NCBI GenBank assembly: GCA_010672925.1
Contig: JAAHFP010000025.1
Coordinates: forward strand, 1 to 64,000
Direction of reading: 5' to 3'
From: Symploca sp. SIO1C2
Lineage (GTDB): Bacteria; Cyanobacteriota; Cyanobacteriia; Cyanobacteriales; Coleofasciculaceae
Length of the DNA stretch: 64,000 nucleotides
In this document: piece by piece, positions 8,727 through 60,022 of the stretch
Layout: each line of letters starts with the position of its first letter
Position numbering within the stretch: position 1 is the stretch's first letter
Position numbers and translations under genes: made by a program
Notes under the pieces: model-generated
Seen by the model: the letters and a program-made list of their open reading frames with translations, nothing else
Database searches by the model: none
Told to the model about the DNA's origin: nothing

Positions 8727-8926
8727 AAAATGGAGAATGGAGAATGGAGAATGGAGAATTGAGAATTGAGAATTGAGAATTGAGAATTGGCGAGTGTCAA
8801 TATCTCCCTTGTCTACCTTCTGCCTTCTGCCTCCTGCCTTCTGCCTTCTGCCTCCTGCCTTCTGCCTCCTGCCTTCTGCCTCCTGCCTCCTGCCTCCTGC
8901 CTCCTGCCTTCTGCCACCTGCCTTTT
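8727..8926. repeat. Two abutting heptanucleotide STRR arrays
   Basis: 8727-8791 holds tandem GGAGAAT and GAGAATT heptamers. 8815-8926 holds about 16 heptamers of the CTTCTGC/CTCCTGC type. Similar short tandemly repeated repetitive sequences are scattered between genes in the whole window. The second array runs open upstream of rnhA in frame, which gives a false N-terminal extension. Confidence 0.85.
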
Positions 8927-8937
8927 TAAAAGAAAAC

Positions 8938-12522: not shown

Positions 12523-15500
12523 ATGTTGAAACCTCAGCTTTTAACCAGTCTACTGACAACCACCTTCGCTATTGGATTATTCACTGCACCTCCCCATTCA
12601 TCAGCCCAAGGACAATCTCTCACTCCTGCTGCTGACGGTACTGGCACTGTTGTTACCCCCAATGGCAACCAGTTTCAAATTTATGGTGGTTCCTTCTCGG
12701 CTGACGGAACTAATCTATTCCACTCCTTTGAGCAATTTGGCTTATCCTCTGGTCAAATTGCTAACTTTGTATCCTCTCCAGAAATTCACAATATCCTAGG
12801 ACGAATTGTTGGTGGGGATCCTTCGGTGATTAATGGCTTGGTTCAAGTCACTGGGGGTAACTCTAACTTATTTTTAATGAACCCAGCTGGGATTGTTTTT
12901 GGTGCAGATGCTAGTTTAAATGTCCCGGCTGATTTTTTTTCTACCACGGCTACAGGTATTGGCTTTGGTGGAGATAATTGGTTTAACGCTTTAGGCAGCA
13001 ACAATTACCAGGATTTAACCGGTACTCCCAGTCAGTTAGCCTTTGACTTGTCTCAACCAGGAACTATTATCAATGCCGGTTCTTTAGAAGTGGAACCAGG
13101 GAAAAATATTTCCCTAGTTGGCGGCAATGTAATCAACACTGGAAATATTACGGCAGCAGGAGGAAATATTTCCCTGGCTGCGATACCAGGGGAGAATTTA
13201 GTTAAGATAACTCAACCTGGACATTTACTAAGTTTAGAGATTGAACCTCCCAGAGATTCTACAGGGCAAATGCTAGACATTGACCCTGTAGATTTACCGA
13301 CTTTGCTCACAGGACCGCTGCAGGGAGTAGAAACTGGGTTAAATGTCACTCCAACAGGAGAAGTACAGGTAGCTAATTCCAGCACTAATATTCCCCAGGA
13401 TTCAGGTACAACTATCATTTCCGGCTCACTAGATGTCTCCGATGCTTCCCTAATAACCAACAACCAACAACCAACAACCAATAACCAACAACAAATAACC
13501 ATTTTAGGAGACAAAGTTGGTTTAATTGGAGCCAACATTGATGCTTCTGGCAGGAATGGTGGTGGTACAGTCTTGATTGGTGGGGATTATCAAGGACAAG
13601 GAACAGTACCCAATGCGTCCCGTACTTTTGTTAGTAGCGATTCGGTGATTAATGCCGATGCTTTGGACAATGGTGATGGGGGGAAAGTAATAGTTTGGGC
13701 AGACGAAACCACTCGATTTTTCGGTGAGATTAATAGTCGTGGTGGTGCTTTTTCAGGGGATGGTGGTTTTGTTGAAGTATCGGGTTTAGAATTTTTGGAC
13801 TACCAAGGGACAGTCAATACCTTAGCTCCTTTTGGTAATCCTGGAACCCTGCTACTCGACCCGACTAATATTGAAATTGTTGCTGCTGGAGGGACAGCTA
13901 CCTTACTAACGGAAGTTGATGAATTTGGTGACCTGGATATAGGTGATCCTACGACGATCGATGCGGATTTGATTAATAATGCTGCTGCTAATGTTATTCT
14001 GCAAGCAGCTAATGACATTACTTTTAATGAAGAAATCAATATTGCTGCTGATGGAGTTGGACTAACTGCTGAGGCAGGTAATGATATTAATGTTAACGCC
14101 AACATCACTACTACTAATGGTAATATTGCCCTCAATGCCGACGTTGATCGCATAAATGGCGGTACACTAAATCTCACCGGCGTAATTATTGATACTGGTA
14201 CTGGCAATTTCACTGGTACTGGCAACGATATTAATTTTCAAGACAACATCATCACCACCACTAATGGTGATATTGCCCTCAATGCCGACGCTGATCGCAT
14301 AAATGGCGGTACACTAAATCTCACTGGCGTAAGTATTGATACTGGTACTGGCAATTTCACCGGCACGGGTAACGATATTAATTTTGAAAACAACATCATC
14401 ACCACCACTGATGGTAATATTGCCCTCAATGCCGACGCTGATGGCATAGATGGCGGTGCTCTCAACCTTAATAATGTAATTATTGATATTGGTACTGGCA
14501 ATTTCACCGGCACAGGCACAGGCAATGCCACTTTCAAAAATGGCATCACTCTCAACGCTAGCAGTATTAATACGGGCGGCAATATTGACCTTACGGGTAC
14601 GGGAGCAGATGGGAATAATGACAACTACGGCATTCATCTTGTCAACGATAGCGTGTTGGCATCGACAGGGGCAGGAAGCATTACCCTAGATGGTACAGGG
14701 GGTACTGGGACTAATAACCTGGATGGGATCAAGATTGAAGGCGCAGACTCCCGCATCTCTTCCGTGGATGGGAATATTCAACTAACAGGCAGAGGTGGAA
14801 ATGGGACTGCCAATGCCAACAATGGTATTTCCTTAGTGGCTGGTGGTGTAGTGGAATCCACTGGTGAGGGAACAGTTACCCTAACCGGGATTGGCGGCAG
14901 TGGCACAGATCCGAACCGGGGAATACAGATTCTGGACGACTCCCGTGTCTCTTCCGCGAATGGAGATCTCACTGTGACGGGTACTGGTGGCGACGGCAAT
15001 TTGAATGATAATCAAGGCATTTTTGTTCGCAATGGTGAAGTGGAATCAACTGGGACAGGAGCAATTACCCTAGTGGGAACTGCTGCTAACGGTGAAGGGA
15101 TTCGCTTTGAGGGTGATAGCTTTGCTGCTGCTGGGGATGGCAAAATCACTTTCACTGCTGATGAAATCAATCTCTTGGATAATACTGAAATCATTGGTAC
15201 TGGTGATGTCCAATTGCAACCCTTAGACAATGCCTTAGACATTACTATTGGTGGCGCTACTGACGATAACCGCTTAAATCTCGACACCAACGAACTTAAC
15301 TCCTTACAGGATGGCTTTGAACGAATCATTATTGGACGAGATGATAGCAGCAACACTATTACTGCAACTGGTGACGTTACTTTCAATGACCCGGTTACTT
15401 TACAATCACCTGTAGGTGCTGGCTCTATCGACACTAGCGGTTTTACTCTTACTGGAGTCGATGATGCTTCAATTACCCTAGAAGCTAGACGACTAATCAC

Positions 15501-22644: not shown

Positions 22645-22851
22645 CATTGGTGTCAACTTAAGTCTAGACATAGCTGACTAGCTGGATTTCCTAACTCACC
22701 TTGGATTCAAATCCAAGGCTAATAGCTTAAGTCCATTGAAATGGACTAACTTTTTCGGATTTATTTTAGTCATCTTTAGATGACTTGAGCTATTAGCCTG
22801 TCGTTTAAACGACAGGTGAGGCAAGGATTTCACTTTAAGTTGACAGGAATG
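22645..22851. mobile_element. MITE-like structured element, family 2, copy D1
   Basis: 207 bp with ends CATTGGTGTCAACTTAA and, inverted, a copy with two changes (TTAAGTTGACAGGAATG). The flanking 9-mers CACGTCAGT (22636-22644) and CACGTCGGT (22852-22860) differ at one base. Inside are four hairpins in a row: CCTTGGATTCAAATCCAAGG, AGTCCATTGAAATGGACT, AGTCATCTTTAGATGACT and CCTGTCGTTTAAACGACAGG (22797-22816). Copies D2 and D3 lie at 57627 and 59738. Confidence 0.78.
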
Positions 22852-23474: not shown

Positions 23475-23861
23475 TATTTTCAGATAACCTTGTTTTTTTA
23501 CACGCTATAACTCACTTAAACCTTGCACTTTTACCAGAAAATTACTCCTGATCTCTTAACTTATTACTTATTACTCTTCAGAAAGTAGAAATAACAACAG
23601 GATGGCTGAATCTCTTGATATAACACGTTTGCTGAATTTTTTTTGGACTGAAGTCCTACTACTGCTTATTACTTATTACTTCAAAGCCTAAATCAATCGA
23701 CTCGATGAGGCAAACCTTAAATAATTATCTACCTTATCCTCCTTGTCTCCCTTGTCCTCCTTGTCTCCCTTGCCCCTCTGTCCCCCACTCCCTACTCCCT
23801 TCTTCGTTCACCAAGATATACTAAAAATTTGAGATATCTTTCTGCTGACTGCTACTATTCT
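23475..23861. other. Intergenic region with repeats
   Basis: Holds TTATTACT-type repeats (about 23560-23580 and 23665-23682), a 55-bp block (23672-23728) whose inverse is found at about 29055-29100, and a pyrimidine array of CTTGTCTCC units (23745-23790). Promoters for the divergent cold-shock-type and M16 genes must lie here. Confidence 0.5.
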
Positions 23862-25478
23862 ATGAATTCGCTGTCTAGATCTGTTCCAATTTTCCAGCTT
23901 GCTGCTAATGCATTACCCTTAACTAGGGGCTCAAAACAACGCCGGTGGCGTTCAGTGATTGCCGCTTTCCTGGTAGCTTCCATGCTAGGGCTAGTCGCAA
24001 AACCGACTGAGGCTTGGGCTCGCTCAGAAGTACCAACAGATACAGCGGGTTCCATTCAACCCTATTTAGATAACGTTATCGACAAGGTAACGGAGTTTCG
24101 CCTGGATAATGGTATCAAGTTTATTGTCCTCGAACGCCACAGTGCTCCAGTAGTTTCTTTTATCACCTATGCTGATGTTGGCGGTGCTGATGAACCTGAT
24201 GGTAAAACTGGAGTGGCTCACTTCCTAGAGCATTTAGCCTTCAAAGGTACTGATATTGTTGGCACAAGTAACTACGAAGCGGAAAAGCAACTATTTGTGC
24301 GCCTGGATGATTTATTTGAACAAATTCAAAAAGCCAAGGCCGCCGGGGATGAAACAGAAGTTACTAAGTTAGAAGAGGAGTTTGCCCAACTACAAGCTGA
24401 GGCAGGTAAATATGCTAAGCAAAATGAAATGGGTCAAATTGTTGAAAGAGCAGGTGGTGTCGGGTTAAATGCCGCAACCTCAACTGATGCCACCTTCTAC
24501 TTCTATAGCTTCCCTGCCAATAAACTGGAACTATGGATGTCCCTGGAATCAGAGCGCTTCCTCAATCCAGTGTTTCGGGAATTTTATAAGGAGAAAAAGG
24601 TTATCCTAGAAGAGCGTCGTCTACGTACCGATAACTCTCCTATTGGTCAGATGATTGAAGCTTTCTTGGATACTGCCTTCGAGGTACATCCCTACAAACG
24701 TCCGGTGATTGGCTACGACACAGATATCCGCAACCTCACCCGCGCTGATGTACGAGAGTTTTTTGAGACTCACTATATTCCCAGTAATCTCACAATGGCA
24801 GTGGTGGGAGATGTTGACCCGACAGAAGTTCAACAGCTAGCTCAACTCTACTTCGGACGCTACGAAACCAAGCCCTCACCACCACCAGTAACTGCGGTTG
24901 AACCACGACAGCAAGAAACAAGGGAAGTAACTTTGGAATTACCTTCCCAACCCTGGTATTTAGAAGGATACCATCGACCAGCAATCAACCACCCCGATAA
25001 TGTGGTTTATCAAATTATTGGTAGTCTGCTTAGTGATGGTCGCACCTCTCGTCTCTATAAGTCTTTAGTAGAAAAGCAACAAATAGCCCTCTCCGCAGCA
25101 GGATTTAGTGGCTTCCCTGGAGAGAAATATCCCAACTTGATGCTGTTTTATGCCTTAACTGCACCAGGACATACAGTGGATGAAGTAGAAGCAGCATTGC
25201 GTACAGAAATCGAGCTCCTTAAGCAGGAACCAGTATCTAAACAGGATTTGGAGCGAGTGAAAACCCAAGCCCGTGCTGGTTTATTGCGTTCTCTTGGTTC
25301 TAATACGGGTATGGCTCGCAATTTGGTAGAGTACCAAGTTAAAACTGGTGATTGGCGCAACTTGTTCAAGGAACTAGACGCAATAGCAGCAGTTACTCCA
25401 GAGGATATTATGCGGGTAGCTCAAGAAACTTTCACTCCAGAAAATCGCACTATTGGACGCATTTTACCTAGTGAGTAA
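23862..25478 (+). CDS. M16 family metallopeptidase, catalytic subunit
   Basis: 538 residues from ATG 23862; a longer reading would begin at TTG 23829. An N-terminal hydrophobic segment (SVIAAFLVASMLGLVA, AWA) indicates export. The inverted zinc motif HFLEH (H120, E123, H124) and the downstream Glu in VILEERR show an active M16 protease. The second half has the R-Y pair region (QIIGSLLSDGRTSRLYKSLV) of the C-terminal M16 domain. An insertion at about 150-195 is rich in Glu/Lys and probably helical. The next gene encodes a partner without the zinc motif. The pair resembles PqqL/MPP-like heterodimers that degrade peptides in the periplasm. Confidence 0.88.
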   Translation: MNSLSRSVPIFQLAANALPLTRGSKQRRWRSVIAAFLVASMLGLVAKPTEAWARSEVPTDTAGSIQPYLDNVIDKVTEFRLDNGIKFIVLERHSAPVVSFITYADVGGADEPDGKTGVAHFLEHLAFKGTDIVGTSNYEAEKQLFVRLDDLFEQIQKAKAAGDETEVTKLEEEFAQLQAEAGKYAKQNEMGQIVERAGGVGLNAATSTDATFYFYSFPANKLELWMSLESERFLNPVFREFYKEKKVILEERRLRTDNSPIGQMIEAFLDTAFEVHPYKRPVIGYDTDIRNLTRADVREFFETHYIPSNLTMAVVGDVDPTEVQQLAQLYFGRYETKPSPPPVTAVEPRQQETREVTLELPSQPWYLEGYHRPAINHPDNVVYQIIGSLLSDGRTSRLYKSLVEKQQIALSAAGFSGFPGEKYPNLMLFYALTAPGHTVDEVEAALRTEIELLKQEPVSKQDLERVKTQARAGLLRSLGSNTGMARNLVEYQVKTGDWRNLFKELDAIAAVTPEDIMRVAQETFTPENRTIGRILPSE

Positions 25479-25639
25479 GGAAGAGGCAGAAGGCAGGAGG
25501 CAGGAGGCAGGAGGCAGGAGGAAAGAAAGCTTTTTAACTGATGGGTAATTTCCGCCACACTCTACTAACTCCTCAAAGAGAAATCCTTAAATAACCAATG
25601 ACCAATGACCAATGACCAATGACTAATGACTAATAACCA

Positions 25640-53523: not shown

Positions 53524-53759
53524 TAATAATGTCTGTATCTGTTACTTTGTAGATCAAGTGGTGTTCATCATTGATGCGTCGTGACCAATAACAGCTGTAC
53601 TCATGTTTTAGGGCTTTCTGGTTTGCCCAATCCTACAAATGGTGCTCGGTTGATATCTTTAATGAGGGTGATGATTTTTTGGTGAATCTTTTTATTCAGA
53701 CTTGCCCATTCGTTACAATCCTCAAATGCAGAAGCTTCAAATGCAATACGCCGACTCAT
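53521..53759 (-). pseudogene. YoeB-type toxin gene, frameshifted and 3' truncated
   Basis: ATG 53759 overlaps the antitoxin stop (ATGA). The frame begins MSRRIAFEASAFEDCNEWAS and IITLIKDINRAPFVGLGKPE, as in YoeB/Txe ribosome-dependent RNases, then a stop is met at 53601-53603. In the next frame it continues ALKHEYSCYWSRRINDEHHL and IYKVTDTDIIII, so a single extra base in the T-run at 53615-53617 broke it. The usual ending after IIII (catalytic His-Tyr region) is missing: the 537-residue gene's end lies there instead. The toxin must be inactive. Confidence 0.8.
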
Positions 53760-53986
53760 TCAAGAGCCTCAAGATTGACTTCAATCAAATTAGTCCCATT
53801 TTCAACATTTTTTATAGATTGAAGTAAAAGTTTCCGATTTGCTTTCGACTTGGAGAGATAGGCTGTTTCATCGACATCGTAAACGATAATCTCTATTTCT
53901 TTATCCTGAAACAGAGTTTTGAGTGACTCTAGAAAATTTTGGTCTAGATCCCTCGCATTTAGACGGAATGAACTCTCCATACTCAT
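53756..53986 (-). CDS. YoeB-type antitoxin, copy 1
   Basis: 76 residues (RLNARDLDQNFLESLKTLF, EIIVYDVDETAYLSKSKAN, LIEVNLEALE). It precedes a broken yoeB with an ATGA overlap, the usual layout of a YefM/Axe-like antitoxin that also represses its operon. A second copy at 54673 differs at about 10 residues, and both upstream regions share TTTATTATAGCGCTTCTCAG. With the toxin lost, this copy can only act in trans or as a repressor. Confidence 0.78.
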   Translation of the reverse strand: MSMESSFRLNARDLDQNFLESLKTLFQDKEIEIIVYDVDETAYLSKSKANRKLLLQSIKNVENGTNLIEVNLEALE

Positions 53987-54027
53987 CGGCTGCGAACAGT
54001 TTCACTTTATTATAGCGCTTCTCAGTA

Positions 54028-54372: not shown

Positions 54373-54676
54373 ACTGCACCACCGCCTCAGCCATTACTCT
54401 GTCTCGAAAATAAATACTTAACTCTTCAGGAGTTCTTAAATCAATCTTTCTCCCCTCAAACAATTCTGCCAGCTCCATCTCCATACTGACTATCTTAAAG
54501 AAACCCGGAATTTTACCTGGCTCAAACTCTACTAAAAAATCAATATCACTCTCCGGTGTAAAATCATCCCTTAACACCGAACCGAATAAGGATAGCTTAC
54601 GGATATAGTGACACTGACAAAATTGTACTAGTTCTTCCCTAGGAATCTCGATCGGTAATTGTTTAGTTTCACTCAT
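54359..54676 (-). CDS. mntA: MNT-type nucleotidyltransferase antitoxin MntA
   Basis: 105 residues. GSVLRDDFTPESDIDFLVEF holds GSX10DXD exactly, the active site of MntA, with a third Asp in KIDLRTP. It should transfer AMP to the HepT tyrosine and thereby silence it. The start codon overlaps the stop of a YoeB-type antitoxin (ATGA at 54673-54676), which is not the usual neighbour of mntA. Transcription and translation are therefore coupled to that antitoxin. Confidence 0.9.
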   Translation of the reverse strand: MSETKQLPIEIPREELVQFCQCHYIRKLSLFGSVLRDDFTPESDIDFLVEFEPGKIPGFFKIVSMEMELAELFEGRKIDLRTPEELSIYFRDRVMAEAVVQYDSN

Positions 54677-54903
54677 TCAAGATCCTCAAGATTGACTTCA
54701 ATCATATTCGTCCCATTTTCAACATTTTTTATGGCTTTAAGTAAACGTTGCTGATTTGCTTCCGACTTGGAGAGATAGGCTGTTTCATCAACATCATAGA
54801 CGATAATCTCTATTTCTCTATCCTGAAACAGAGTTTTGAGTGACTCTAGAAAATTTTGGTTTAGATCCCTCGCATTGAGACGGAATAAACTCTCCATACT
54901 CAT
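54673..54903 (-). CDS. YoeB-type antitoxin, copy 2, leading the MntA-HepT operon
   Basis: 76 residues, nearly identical to the copy at 53756 (RLNARDLNQNFLESLKTLF; NMIEVNLEDLE). Its usual toxin partner is replaced by mntA at exactly the same ATGA overlap. The upstream 40 bp are also duplicated, so the promoter and operator came with it. It may now repress the mntA-hepT genes, and it may neutralise YoeB toxins encoded elsewhere. Confidence 0.78.
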   Translation of the reverse strand: MSMESLFRLNARDLNQNFLESLKTLFQDREIEIIVYDVDETAYLSKSEANQQRLLKAIKNVENGTNMIEVNLEDLE

Positions 54904-55065
54904 CAGCTGTGAACAGTTGCGCTTTATTATAGCGCTTCTCAGTTATATGAATACGGAGTTTTAAACCCAATTATTTTGGTAAATTATCAGGCGATATCTC
55001 AACAAGACCTTTGCTCTCAAAGGAAGTACGATGTAAAAATCCCTCACTAGGAAGACATAACTGGT

Positions 55066-57591: not shown

Positions 57592-57913
57592 AGTTTGATA
57601 AATTGCTTTAAGGTCACGTTTAGGGTCATTGGTGTCAATTTAAACCTAGACATAGCTGGCTAGTTTGATGACCTAACTCACCTTGGATTCAAATCCAAGG
57701 CTAATAGCTTAAGTCCATTAAAATGGACTAAATTTTTTGGCCTCACCTTAAGTTAGTCATCTAAAGATGACTTGAGCTATGAGCCGGTCGTTTGAACGAC
57801 CGGCGGGATAAGGTTTTCACTTTAAGTTGACACCAATGGTTTAGGGTAACCCTTAAGGTATTTAGTGAAATCTTAATACAACATGCCCCTACGATGTGTG
57901 AATTTAATTCACA
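57592..57913. other. Intergenic region at the right edge of the accessory island
   Basis: Mostly occupied by the family 2 element at 57627-57838. The remaining 75 bp before the ccs1-like stop codon has no visible feature. Confidence 0.6.
57627..57838. mobile_element. MITE-like structured element, family 2, copy D2
   Basis: 212 bp. The ends CATTGGTGTCAA and TTGACACCAATG are perfect complements, and an exact 9-bp duplication GTTTAGGGT lies outside (57618-57626 and 57839-57847). Four hairpins: CCTTGGATTCAAATCCAAGG (57681-57700), AGTCCATT/AATGGACT (57712-57730), AGTCATCTAAAGATGACT (57755-57772) and CCGGTCGTTTGAACGACCGG (57784-57803). The last one differs from copy D1 by a paired change that keeps the stem. 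Confidence 0.85.
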
Positions 57914-59701: not shown

Positions 59702-60022
59702 AAGACAGGTGGCAGGTAGTAGGTGGCAGGTGGTAGGTATTGGTATCAGCTTAAGGCCGAAACCCTTATTCTGCCGGTCACTCAAGTTCCTTTTCTTGTA
59801 GCTCAAGTCATCTAAAGATGACTAACTTAAGGTAAAGCAGAAAAATTTAGTCTATTTCAATGGACTTAAGCTATTAGCCTTGGATTTGAATCCAAGGTGG
59901 GTTAGGTCATCAACTAGCCAGCTATGTTTAAGCTTAAGTTGACACCAATGGGTGGTAGGTAGCAGCAGGATCCATTTACCATGAATTCCCAATTCCCAAT
60001 TTCCCATTCTAAATTCTAAATT
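59702..60022. other. Intergenic region in the multihaem cluster with mobile element
   Basis: Holds a family 2 element (59738-59950), flanked by GGTGGTAGG/GGTGGCAGG repeats, and an AAATTCT repeat near 60008-60040. Confidence 0.6.
59738..59950. mobile_element. MITE-like structured element, family 2, copy D3 (inverted)
   Basis: 213 bp, in reverse orientation to D2. The right end TTAAGTTGACACCAATG is intact and the left end TATTGGTATCAGCTTAA has three changes. The flanking 9-mers are both GGTGGTAGG (59729-59737 and 59951-59959), although they lie in a GGTGGTAGG-type repeat, which weakens that evidence. Three hairpins are kept and the fourth has decayed. Confidence 0.7.

Follow-up and report, generated by a model that had tools for sequence, protein, structure and literature searches.

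Small hairpin repeats of 21-27 nt, which carry compensatory mutations and often lie inside minitransposons, were reportedly described in Nostoc as small dispersed repeats (SDR) by Elhai in 2008; if parts of the element core analysed here have been described before, it is most likely in that work. Our literature search, judged by titles and abstracts, returned no paper describing or naming the cyanobacterial core; an earlier description may exist. In the excerpts of the sources on which we draw, GTAG repeats are reported from cyanobacteria (PMC3733652), HUH nucleases that go with GTAG repeats are given as abundant in cyanobacteria (PMC6006769), and IS elements that target REP sequences are known (PMC1525189). 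The Acido-Lenti-1 motif (Rfam RF01687) is presented, likewise in the excerpt used, among candidate RNAs, with Acidobacteria and Lentisphaerae as its hosts (PMC2864571).

We compared with these systems a 212-bp mini-transposon (MITE) at positions 57627-57838 of a stretch of 64,000 nucleotides (the window; C164:1-64000) from a draft host genome of 8.67 Mb in 245 contigs. A first-pass annotation had described four hairpins, perfectly paired ends and a perfect 9-bp duplication, and had read covarying stems as a sign of selection on folded DNA or RNA. This observation was real and the feature well observed; its interpretation was supported in part, and splits into two nested things. In the reading that we regard as probable, the element is a nested repeat, in which an IS4-mobilised MITE shell carries a double-hairpin cargo that is maintained as foldable DNA. 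The parts of the element and its further copies in the window are as follows.

57618-57626, no strand: left target-site duplication, GTTTAGGGT, identical to 57839-57847
57627-57644, forward strand: left terminal inverted repeat of an IS4-type MITE; the IS4-family IS of L247 is bounded by the same ends
57675-57731, forward strand: first half-unit, match to the R1 covariance model
57677-57680, forward strand: 5' side of the outer core stem, CTCA in place of the consensus CCCG, pairing partial
57681-57700, forward strand: hairpin H1, 8-bp stem, loop TCAA; in the predicted fold
57701-57709, forward strand: conserved linker CTAATAGCT, which is the 5' side of the middle stem
57712-57729, forward strand: hairpin H2, 7-bp stem AGTCCAT/ATGGACT, loop TAAA; in the predicted fold
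57753-57809, reverse strand: second half-unit, inverted relative to the first, R1 match
57755-57772, forward strand: hairpin H3, 7-bp stem AGTCATC/GATGACT, loop TAAA; in the predicted fold
57775-57783, forward strand: middle stem, 3' side, AGCTATGAG; one mismatch in the window copy
57784-57803, forward strand: hairpin H4, covarying, CCGGTCGTTTGAACGACCGG; in the predicted fold
57804-57807, forward strand: outer core stem, 3' side, CGGG
57821-57838, reverse strand: right terminal inverted repeat, pairs with 57627-57644
57839-57847, no strand: right target-site duplication, GTTTAGGGT
22645-22851, forward strand: second window copy, the D1 of the first-pass annotation as judged by its H4 sequence
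59738-59950, reverse strand: third window copy, target-site duplication GGTGGTAGG exact

All four hairpins were present in the structure predicted for 57618-57847 (-86.3 kcal/mol, z = -7.1), and none of 200 shuffles folded equally low. The 9-bp duplication was indeed perfect. The 18-bp ends pair at 17 positions and meet as T-G at position 13, so that "perfectly paired" was slightly too strong a description. The two-sided change reported for H4 was recovered, with CCTGTCGTTTAAACGACAGG in the copy at 22645-22851 as against the H4 sequence of the element itself. At 212 bp the element is too short to encode a transposase, and none of the listed open reading frames (minimum 100 aa) overlaps it. Elsewhere in the window we observed a direct repeat of 273 nt (92% identical; 53754-54026 and 54671-54943) and heptad and other short tandem repeats (8798-8937, 13449-13509, 23723-23801 and 25474-25535).

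The end sequence CATTGGTGTCAAYTTAA occurred at 182 sites in the host genome (at most one mismatch; backward control: 1), and the interiors of elements with ends of this type differed widely. Of 70 end pairs (90-500 bp, fetched loci), 41 were flanked by a 9-bp duplication that had no more than one mismatch and was exact in 29. Another 29 of the 70 pairs, some of them false or truncated, had no such duplication, a point that weighs against the preferred reading. The core was absent from 10 of the 41 duplicated copies by a lenient motif and from 15 by a strict motif, one of the core-less copies (L050) retaining a single hairpin. The shell therefore does not need the hairpins. That the transposase of the MITE requires them for transposition, as had been proposed, would agree with their position inside a transposable element, the one point in its favour. 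The proposal is largely refuted, however, and very improbable, given that the core-less copies have the same ends, that inverted flanks of other kinds can enclose the core as well, and that two insertion sequences (L247 and L250, see below) have the ends around a transposase gene.

Insertion sites were analysed for the 41 copies selected by their 9-bp duplication with at most one mismatch. The joined flanks formed a palindrome (at least 8 of 10 pairs) at 15 of the 41 sites, compared with 1.1% of 17870 control windows. The left flank carried GTAGGGG or the right flank CCCCTAC at 25 of 41 sites, both together at none (control: 168 of 14610 windows). Short GTAG-type palindromes are preferred targets of the MITE. 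The window copy's own target is weakly palindromic (6 of 10 pairs), which again does not favour the preferred reading.

A candidate mobiliser was found in a genome of the same order as the host (G030), where an IS of 1410 bp (L247) has the ends CATTGGTGTCAACTTAAG/CATTAGTGTCAACTTAAG, the same as those of the MITE. Its transposase is degraded and lies in three pieces, matching NCBIfam IS4_1 and Pfam Nterm_IS4/DDE_Tnp_1. A related, intact IS in genome G056 (L250; ends CACTGGTGTCAAGTTAAGG) encodes a protein of 443 aa that scored 196 bits with NF033592 (cut-off 115), and its flanking repeat is 10-bp, not 9-bp. This relative was present at no fewer than ten places in G056, with an open frame of 447 aa and 68% identity to L247 over a 133-aa piece. 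In the host draft genome the C-terminal piece of the L247 transposase had no match, and MITE ends were not found near the four DDE_Tnp_1 genes of the host. The IS of L250 had no close match among plasmid sequences, and a sequence search matched no solved structure. Two further candidates were rejected: the transposase of L213 (DDE_Tnp_1_2) appears to interrupt a MITE copy, and the second end of L069, considered as a long element, falls inside a repeat ORF. The lack of a partner transposase in the host draft genome and the 10-bp flanking repeat of L250 stand against an IS4-mobilised shell carrying a hairpin cargo. With the shared ends as a guide, we infer that an IS4 transposase may move the MITE today: a DDE transposase of this family would recognise the ends of about 18 bp, mobilise the non-autonomous MITE and leave the 9-bp duplication, and insertion would favour short GTAG-type palindromes. 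Cyanobacterial MITEs of this kind would thereby gain a likely mobiliser, the IS4 family, and gain a landing-site preference for GTAG-type palindromes.

The core is an inverted pair of half-units, each made up of CCCG, a 20-nt hairpin, CTAATAGCT, two bases and an 18-nt hairpin. A covariance model (R1) built from 22 half-units matched 150 of 150 scored candidates in the host genome (4485 candidates), which places at least 150 half-units there. Under stricter filters, with at most about 30 candidates scored per genome, R1 also matched in 45 of the 194 genomes sampled across the phylum, and in 30 of 96 genera. A DNA pattern scan of GTDB genomes yielded at least 102 stretches, mostly from cyanobacteria, with Nostoc, Microcoleus, Fischerella, Symploca and Limnofasciculus among the matches listed; 11 of 80 listed records were non-cyanobacterial by title and were taken as chance, hairpins being seen in none of them on reading. 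Two of the other 22 loci (L181 and L182) also carry non-cyanobacterial titles. We parsed 74 cores, each with H1 and H4 paired to 75% or more, of which one or more, in the archaeal record L138, are probably due to chance. A single match in the plasmid collection (Allocoleopsis franciscana PCC 7113, NC_019760.1) coincides with a match at 1509-1590 on a 93,032-bp contig of a same-family genome (G007), and the phage collection had no match.

Parsed cores were flanked by at least four different types of inverted sequence, namely CATTGGTGTCAACTTAAG, ACTCAGATCTTGCACCA, GGCTACGGTGTACACACAA and CAGGGCTATTTCATTCT (the last in one parsed core), while other parsed cores had no clear inverted repeat within 110 nt. 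The flanks ACTCAGATCTTGCACCA, GGCTACGGTGTACACACAA and CAGGGCTATTTCATTCT may be transposon ends. Within the host genome alone we found the first two flank types, cores matching none of three end patterns for which we searched, and a tandem array. Similar hairpins occur in numerous cyanobacteria and are bounded there by end repeats of several kinds, so that the hairpin cargo appears to be a widespread repeat in its own right and not a working part of the MITE. The cargo, an inverted pair of units with an 8-bp and a 7-bp hairpin each, would then spread mainly inside several MITE-like shells. Our analysis in this way separates the transposon shell from the cargo repeat, which a covariation screen would merge.

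The core could also move alone in the manner of a REPIN, through a folded single strand cut by an HUH (Y1) nuclease, and could have entered the MITEs by this route. Its inverted doublet, high copy number and variable stems with fixed tip and foot are all consistent with such mobility, as are its tandem array, its presence between inverted flanks of several types and its presence at sites where none of the three end patterns was found; compensatory changes are found in REPINs too, according to the excerpt of PMC3116915. However, the core has no GTAG-type foot, and no clean empty site was found: the single orthologous site read, that of a shell-less core, holds another palindromic repeat in its place and is ambiguous. 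A motif scan for HUH/RAYT transposases gave 0 matches in the 1.59 Mb of loci at hand, which had been chosen for other reasons, the scan being run without a known-gene control. We regard movement of the core on its own as rather unlikely. The orthologous empty site of the window element was uninformative, as its flanking genes match different contigs in relatives.

Several side observations concern the surroundings and the interior of the core. Tandem cores with a period of about 222 bp lie at 678-1060 and 1710-1987 of L368 (G000:C46:22700-25400), in two groups about 650 bp apart. L395 (G002) and L369 apparently represent an orthologous site, which is occupied by a core in one of the two genomes and by another palindromic repeat (CCCACCCCTAACCCCTCCC...) in the second, as if palindromes replaced each other there. 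A repeat of about 24-26 nt, TGGCTTACGCCACGCTACGCTATC, sits in the middle of a core hairpin in L306, L351, L353 and L355, from other cyanobacterial genomes, and across this insert at least 8 of 9 pairs were formed at 4 of 9 distinct sites (control: 23 of 3000). By reading, a repeat with ends GAGATCTTGCACCA is inserted in the H2 loop of L163, and a repeat ended by GATACTGTTGGCGAA in H1 of L043 (259-695) and L120.

The stems of the core covary strongly. Among 404 distinct half-units, selected by flanks and linker independently of pairing, the 3' arm of H1 was the exact reverse complement in 224, with 65 different stems, compared with a mean of 7.7 and a maximum of 16 for permuted arms; after thinning to less than 85% identity, 53 of 127 arms were exact vs 1.1 when permuted. 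In an alignment of 23 copies (A2; 21 from the host genome and two from two same-genus genomes), H4 showed two-sided changes at 7 of 8 pairs, the 184 cells including 63 two-sided changes, 0 one-sided changes and 3 unpaired, while H2 and H3 were nearly invariant. Broken copies are absent from this set because the source parse had discarded cores in which H1 or H4 was paired to less than 75%. For 39 of 42 cores taken without a pairing filter, the 312 cells of H4 comprised 264 Watson-Crick pairs, 7 G-T, 10 A-C and 31 others. On a tree built without H4 from 30 of these 39 copies, those with at least 7 of 8 H4 pairs, the H4 stem had changed at least 13 times. The percentage paired in alignment A1 is not evidence, since its 22 rows were thinned from 172 that had been selected for good pairing.

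The earlier statement that loops vary while stems stay holds for H2 and H3, whose stems are kept as the loops change, and fails for H4, in which the stem varies more than the loop. In the 23-copy alignment the number of further pair types was no higher than in shuffles, 489 of 500 of which equalled or surpassed it. Decay was present too: between nearest-neighbour pairs, H1 showed 182 one-sided, non-Watson-Crick changes as against 399 two-sided changes that still pair. Some copies exchange H4 together with the right flank as a block, and some two-sided changes are therefore not independent substitutions. Decay, block exchange and the shuffle result count against a cargo maintained as foldable DNA. 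Of the selection originally proposed, what stands is that pairing is kept under change of letters, far above permuted arms, in hundreds of half-units and many genomes; maintenance of the fold by selection is one of several candidate processes.

Another such process is mutational, with one arm copied from the other at replication (template switching) and palindromes restored without selection on the fold. Loops were inverted over unchanged stems in H3 (of 39 oriented copies, 31 had TTTA and 6 had TAAA) and likewise in H2 (among half-units, TAAA/TTTA 193/23 and TGAA/TTCA 45/9), which points to exchange at the DNA level, and the pairing-filtered 23-copy set held no one-sided H4 cell. Both findings suit template switching. 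Less easily explained by it are the TNAA tip, the H2 base AGTC/GACT and the linker, which are kept across genomes while the middles of the stems vary (linker and AGTC were also used for the choice of rows), and the near absence from H1 of TTGA, the inverse of the common TCAA (1 of 340). We consider a purely mutational origin possible, though not the probable one. Under the preferred reading of a shell with foldable cargo, what keeps the hairpins paired would be maintenance of the sequence in a foldable DNA form, either a single-strand hairpin or a cruciform, and new stem letters would arise as matched pairs by whole-hairpin exchange, by copying of arm from arm, or by selection. The process that restores the pairing may be any of these.

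Pairing that persists through change of letters and the very stable fold would also be expected if the core were a structured non-coding RNA, or an array of RNA-level processing or stability hairpins, kept by selection on the RNA fold. Read in the half-unit's own orientation, the loop of H1 was TNAA in 331 of 340 well-paired cases, inverted in 9 and never other, and that of H2 was TNAA in 301 of 335, the remainder being inverted (TTNA) except for 2. As one half is inverted relative to the other, a given strand has its TNAA loops in one of them and TTNA loops in its counterpart; the entire core forms an inverted repeat and is strand-symmetric, which is how a DNA-level palindrome would look, and argues against a one-strand RNA. 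Nor was there a wobble bias in the strict test, with 23 G-T vs 18 A-C cells in the 39 copies oriented alike. In mixed core strands, a weaker test, G-T/A-C counts were 65/72 for H1 and 70/100 for H2 in 404 half-units, and 55/49 and 62/80 in 259 of 472 candidates; a tolerance of G-U over A-C on one strand was thus seen neither in oriented copies nor in mixed-strand sets. No Rfam family reached its gathering threshold in the window, and microRNA and similar matches at the E-value threshold, which stayed below their cut-offs, were dismissed as generic hits to long hairpins. The structured-RNA interpretation put forward earlier retains the conserved pairing, but not a wobble signature. Given the covariation, the TNAA loops and a G-T count not above A-C, folding at the DNA level appears to fit these sequences better, and an RNA-level function is unlikely.

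The remaining support for the RNA interpretation is a likeness to the candidate sRNA Acido-Lenti-1. In the window, RF01687 covered the left half-unit at full length with 26.3 bits, below the gathering score of 37 bits. Across 19 searched genomes (150 candidates scored per genome) the best score was 32.1 bits, in relatives, and five matches with E ≤0.001 were obtained in three genomes, all on half-units; there were none at this threshold in 14 control genomes or in the host genome (150 candidates scored). The half-unit resembles Acido-Lenti-1 below the cut-off, and we do not assign the core as a member. The two share an 8-bp stem, a 4-nt loop, a linker beginning with CTAA and a second hairpin ending in ACT; they differ in that the cyanobacterial form, at 26-32 bits, remains under the cut-off and forms a convergent inverted pair. 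In an acidobacterial genome (G232, source of L169) Acido-Lenti-1 had at least 106 matches among 150 scored of 1357 candidates, and the Rfam "RNA" is therefore a high-copy repeat in that genome. The 106 listed places included no convergent neighbours within 300 bp and three divergent ones. In 19 copies from G232 the loops were mostly TTAC or TGAA, and 151 of 152 H1 cells were Watson-Crick over several stems, the outer pairs being fixed by choice because copies were selected by CCC...GGGCTA. Should it be as DNA that the stems are kept paired, certain candidate RNAs called from covariation may be DNA repeats, Acido-Lenti-1 being a concrete case in question. A wider and doubtful extension would make the half-unit a mobile DNA module of both Cyanobacteria and Acidobacteria, filed in the latter as Acido-Lenti-1 RNA, which would be recognised by shape (fixed TNAA tip and foot, free stems), move via folded single-strand DNA and also hitchhike in unrelated MITEs.

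Compared with the other known systems, the core shares with REP/REPIN sequences and their RAYTs the high-copy inverted doublets with compensatory changes (excerpt of PMC3116915) and differs in its foot, which is CCCG/CGGG or a variant and not GTAG/CGTC. The landing sites of the MITE, by contrast with the core, resemble the cyanobacterial GTAG repeats as these appear in the excerpt of PMC3733652. The Type II MITEs of Anabaena sp. 90, for which the consulted part of PMC3542288 names no recognised IS with the same ends, are likened to the present element by description, being cyanobacterial and having several internal inverted repeats. The mini-transposon itself is of an already known kind, an IS4-family MITE, with ends common to an IS4-family IS, 9-bp duplications and a length too short to code; it differs from such MITEs in that its partner was not found in the host draft genome and in that the cargo repeat it carries also lives elsewhere.
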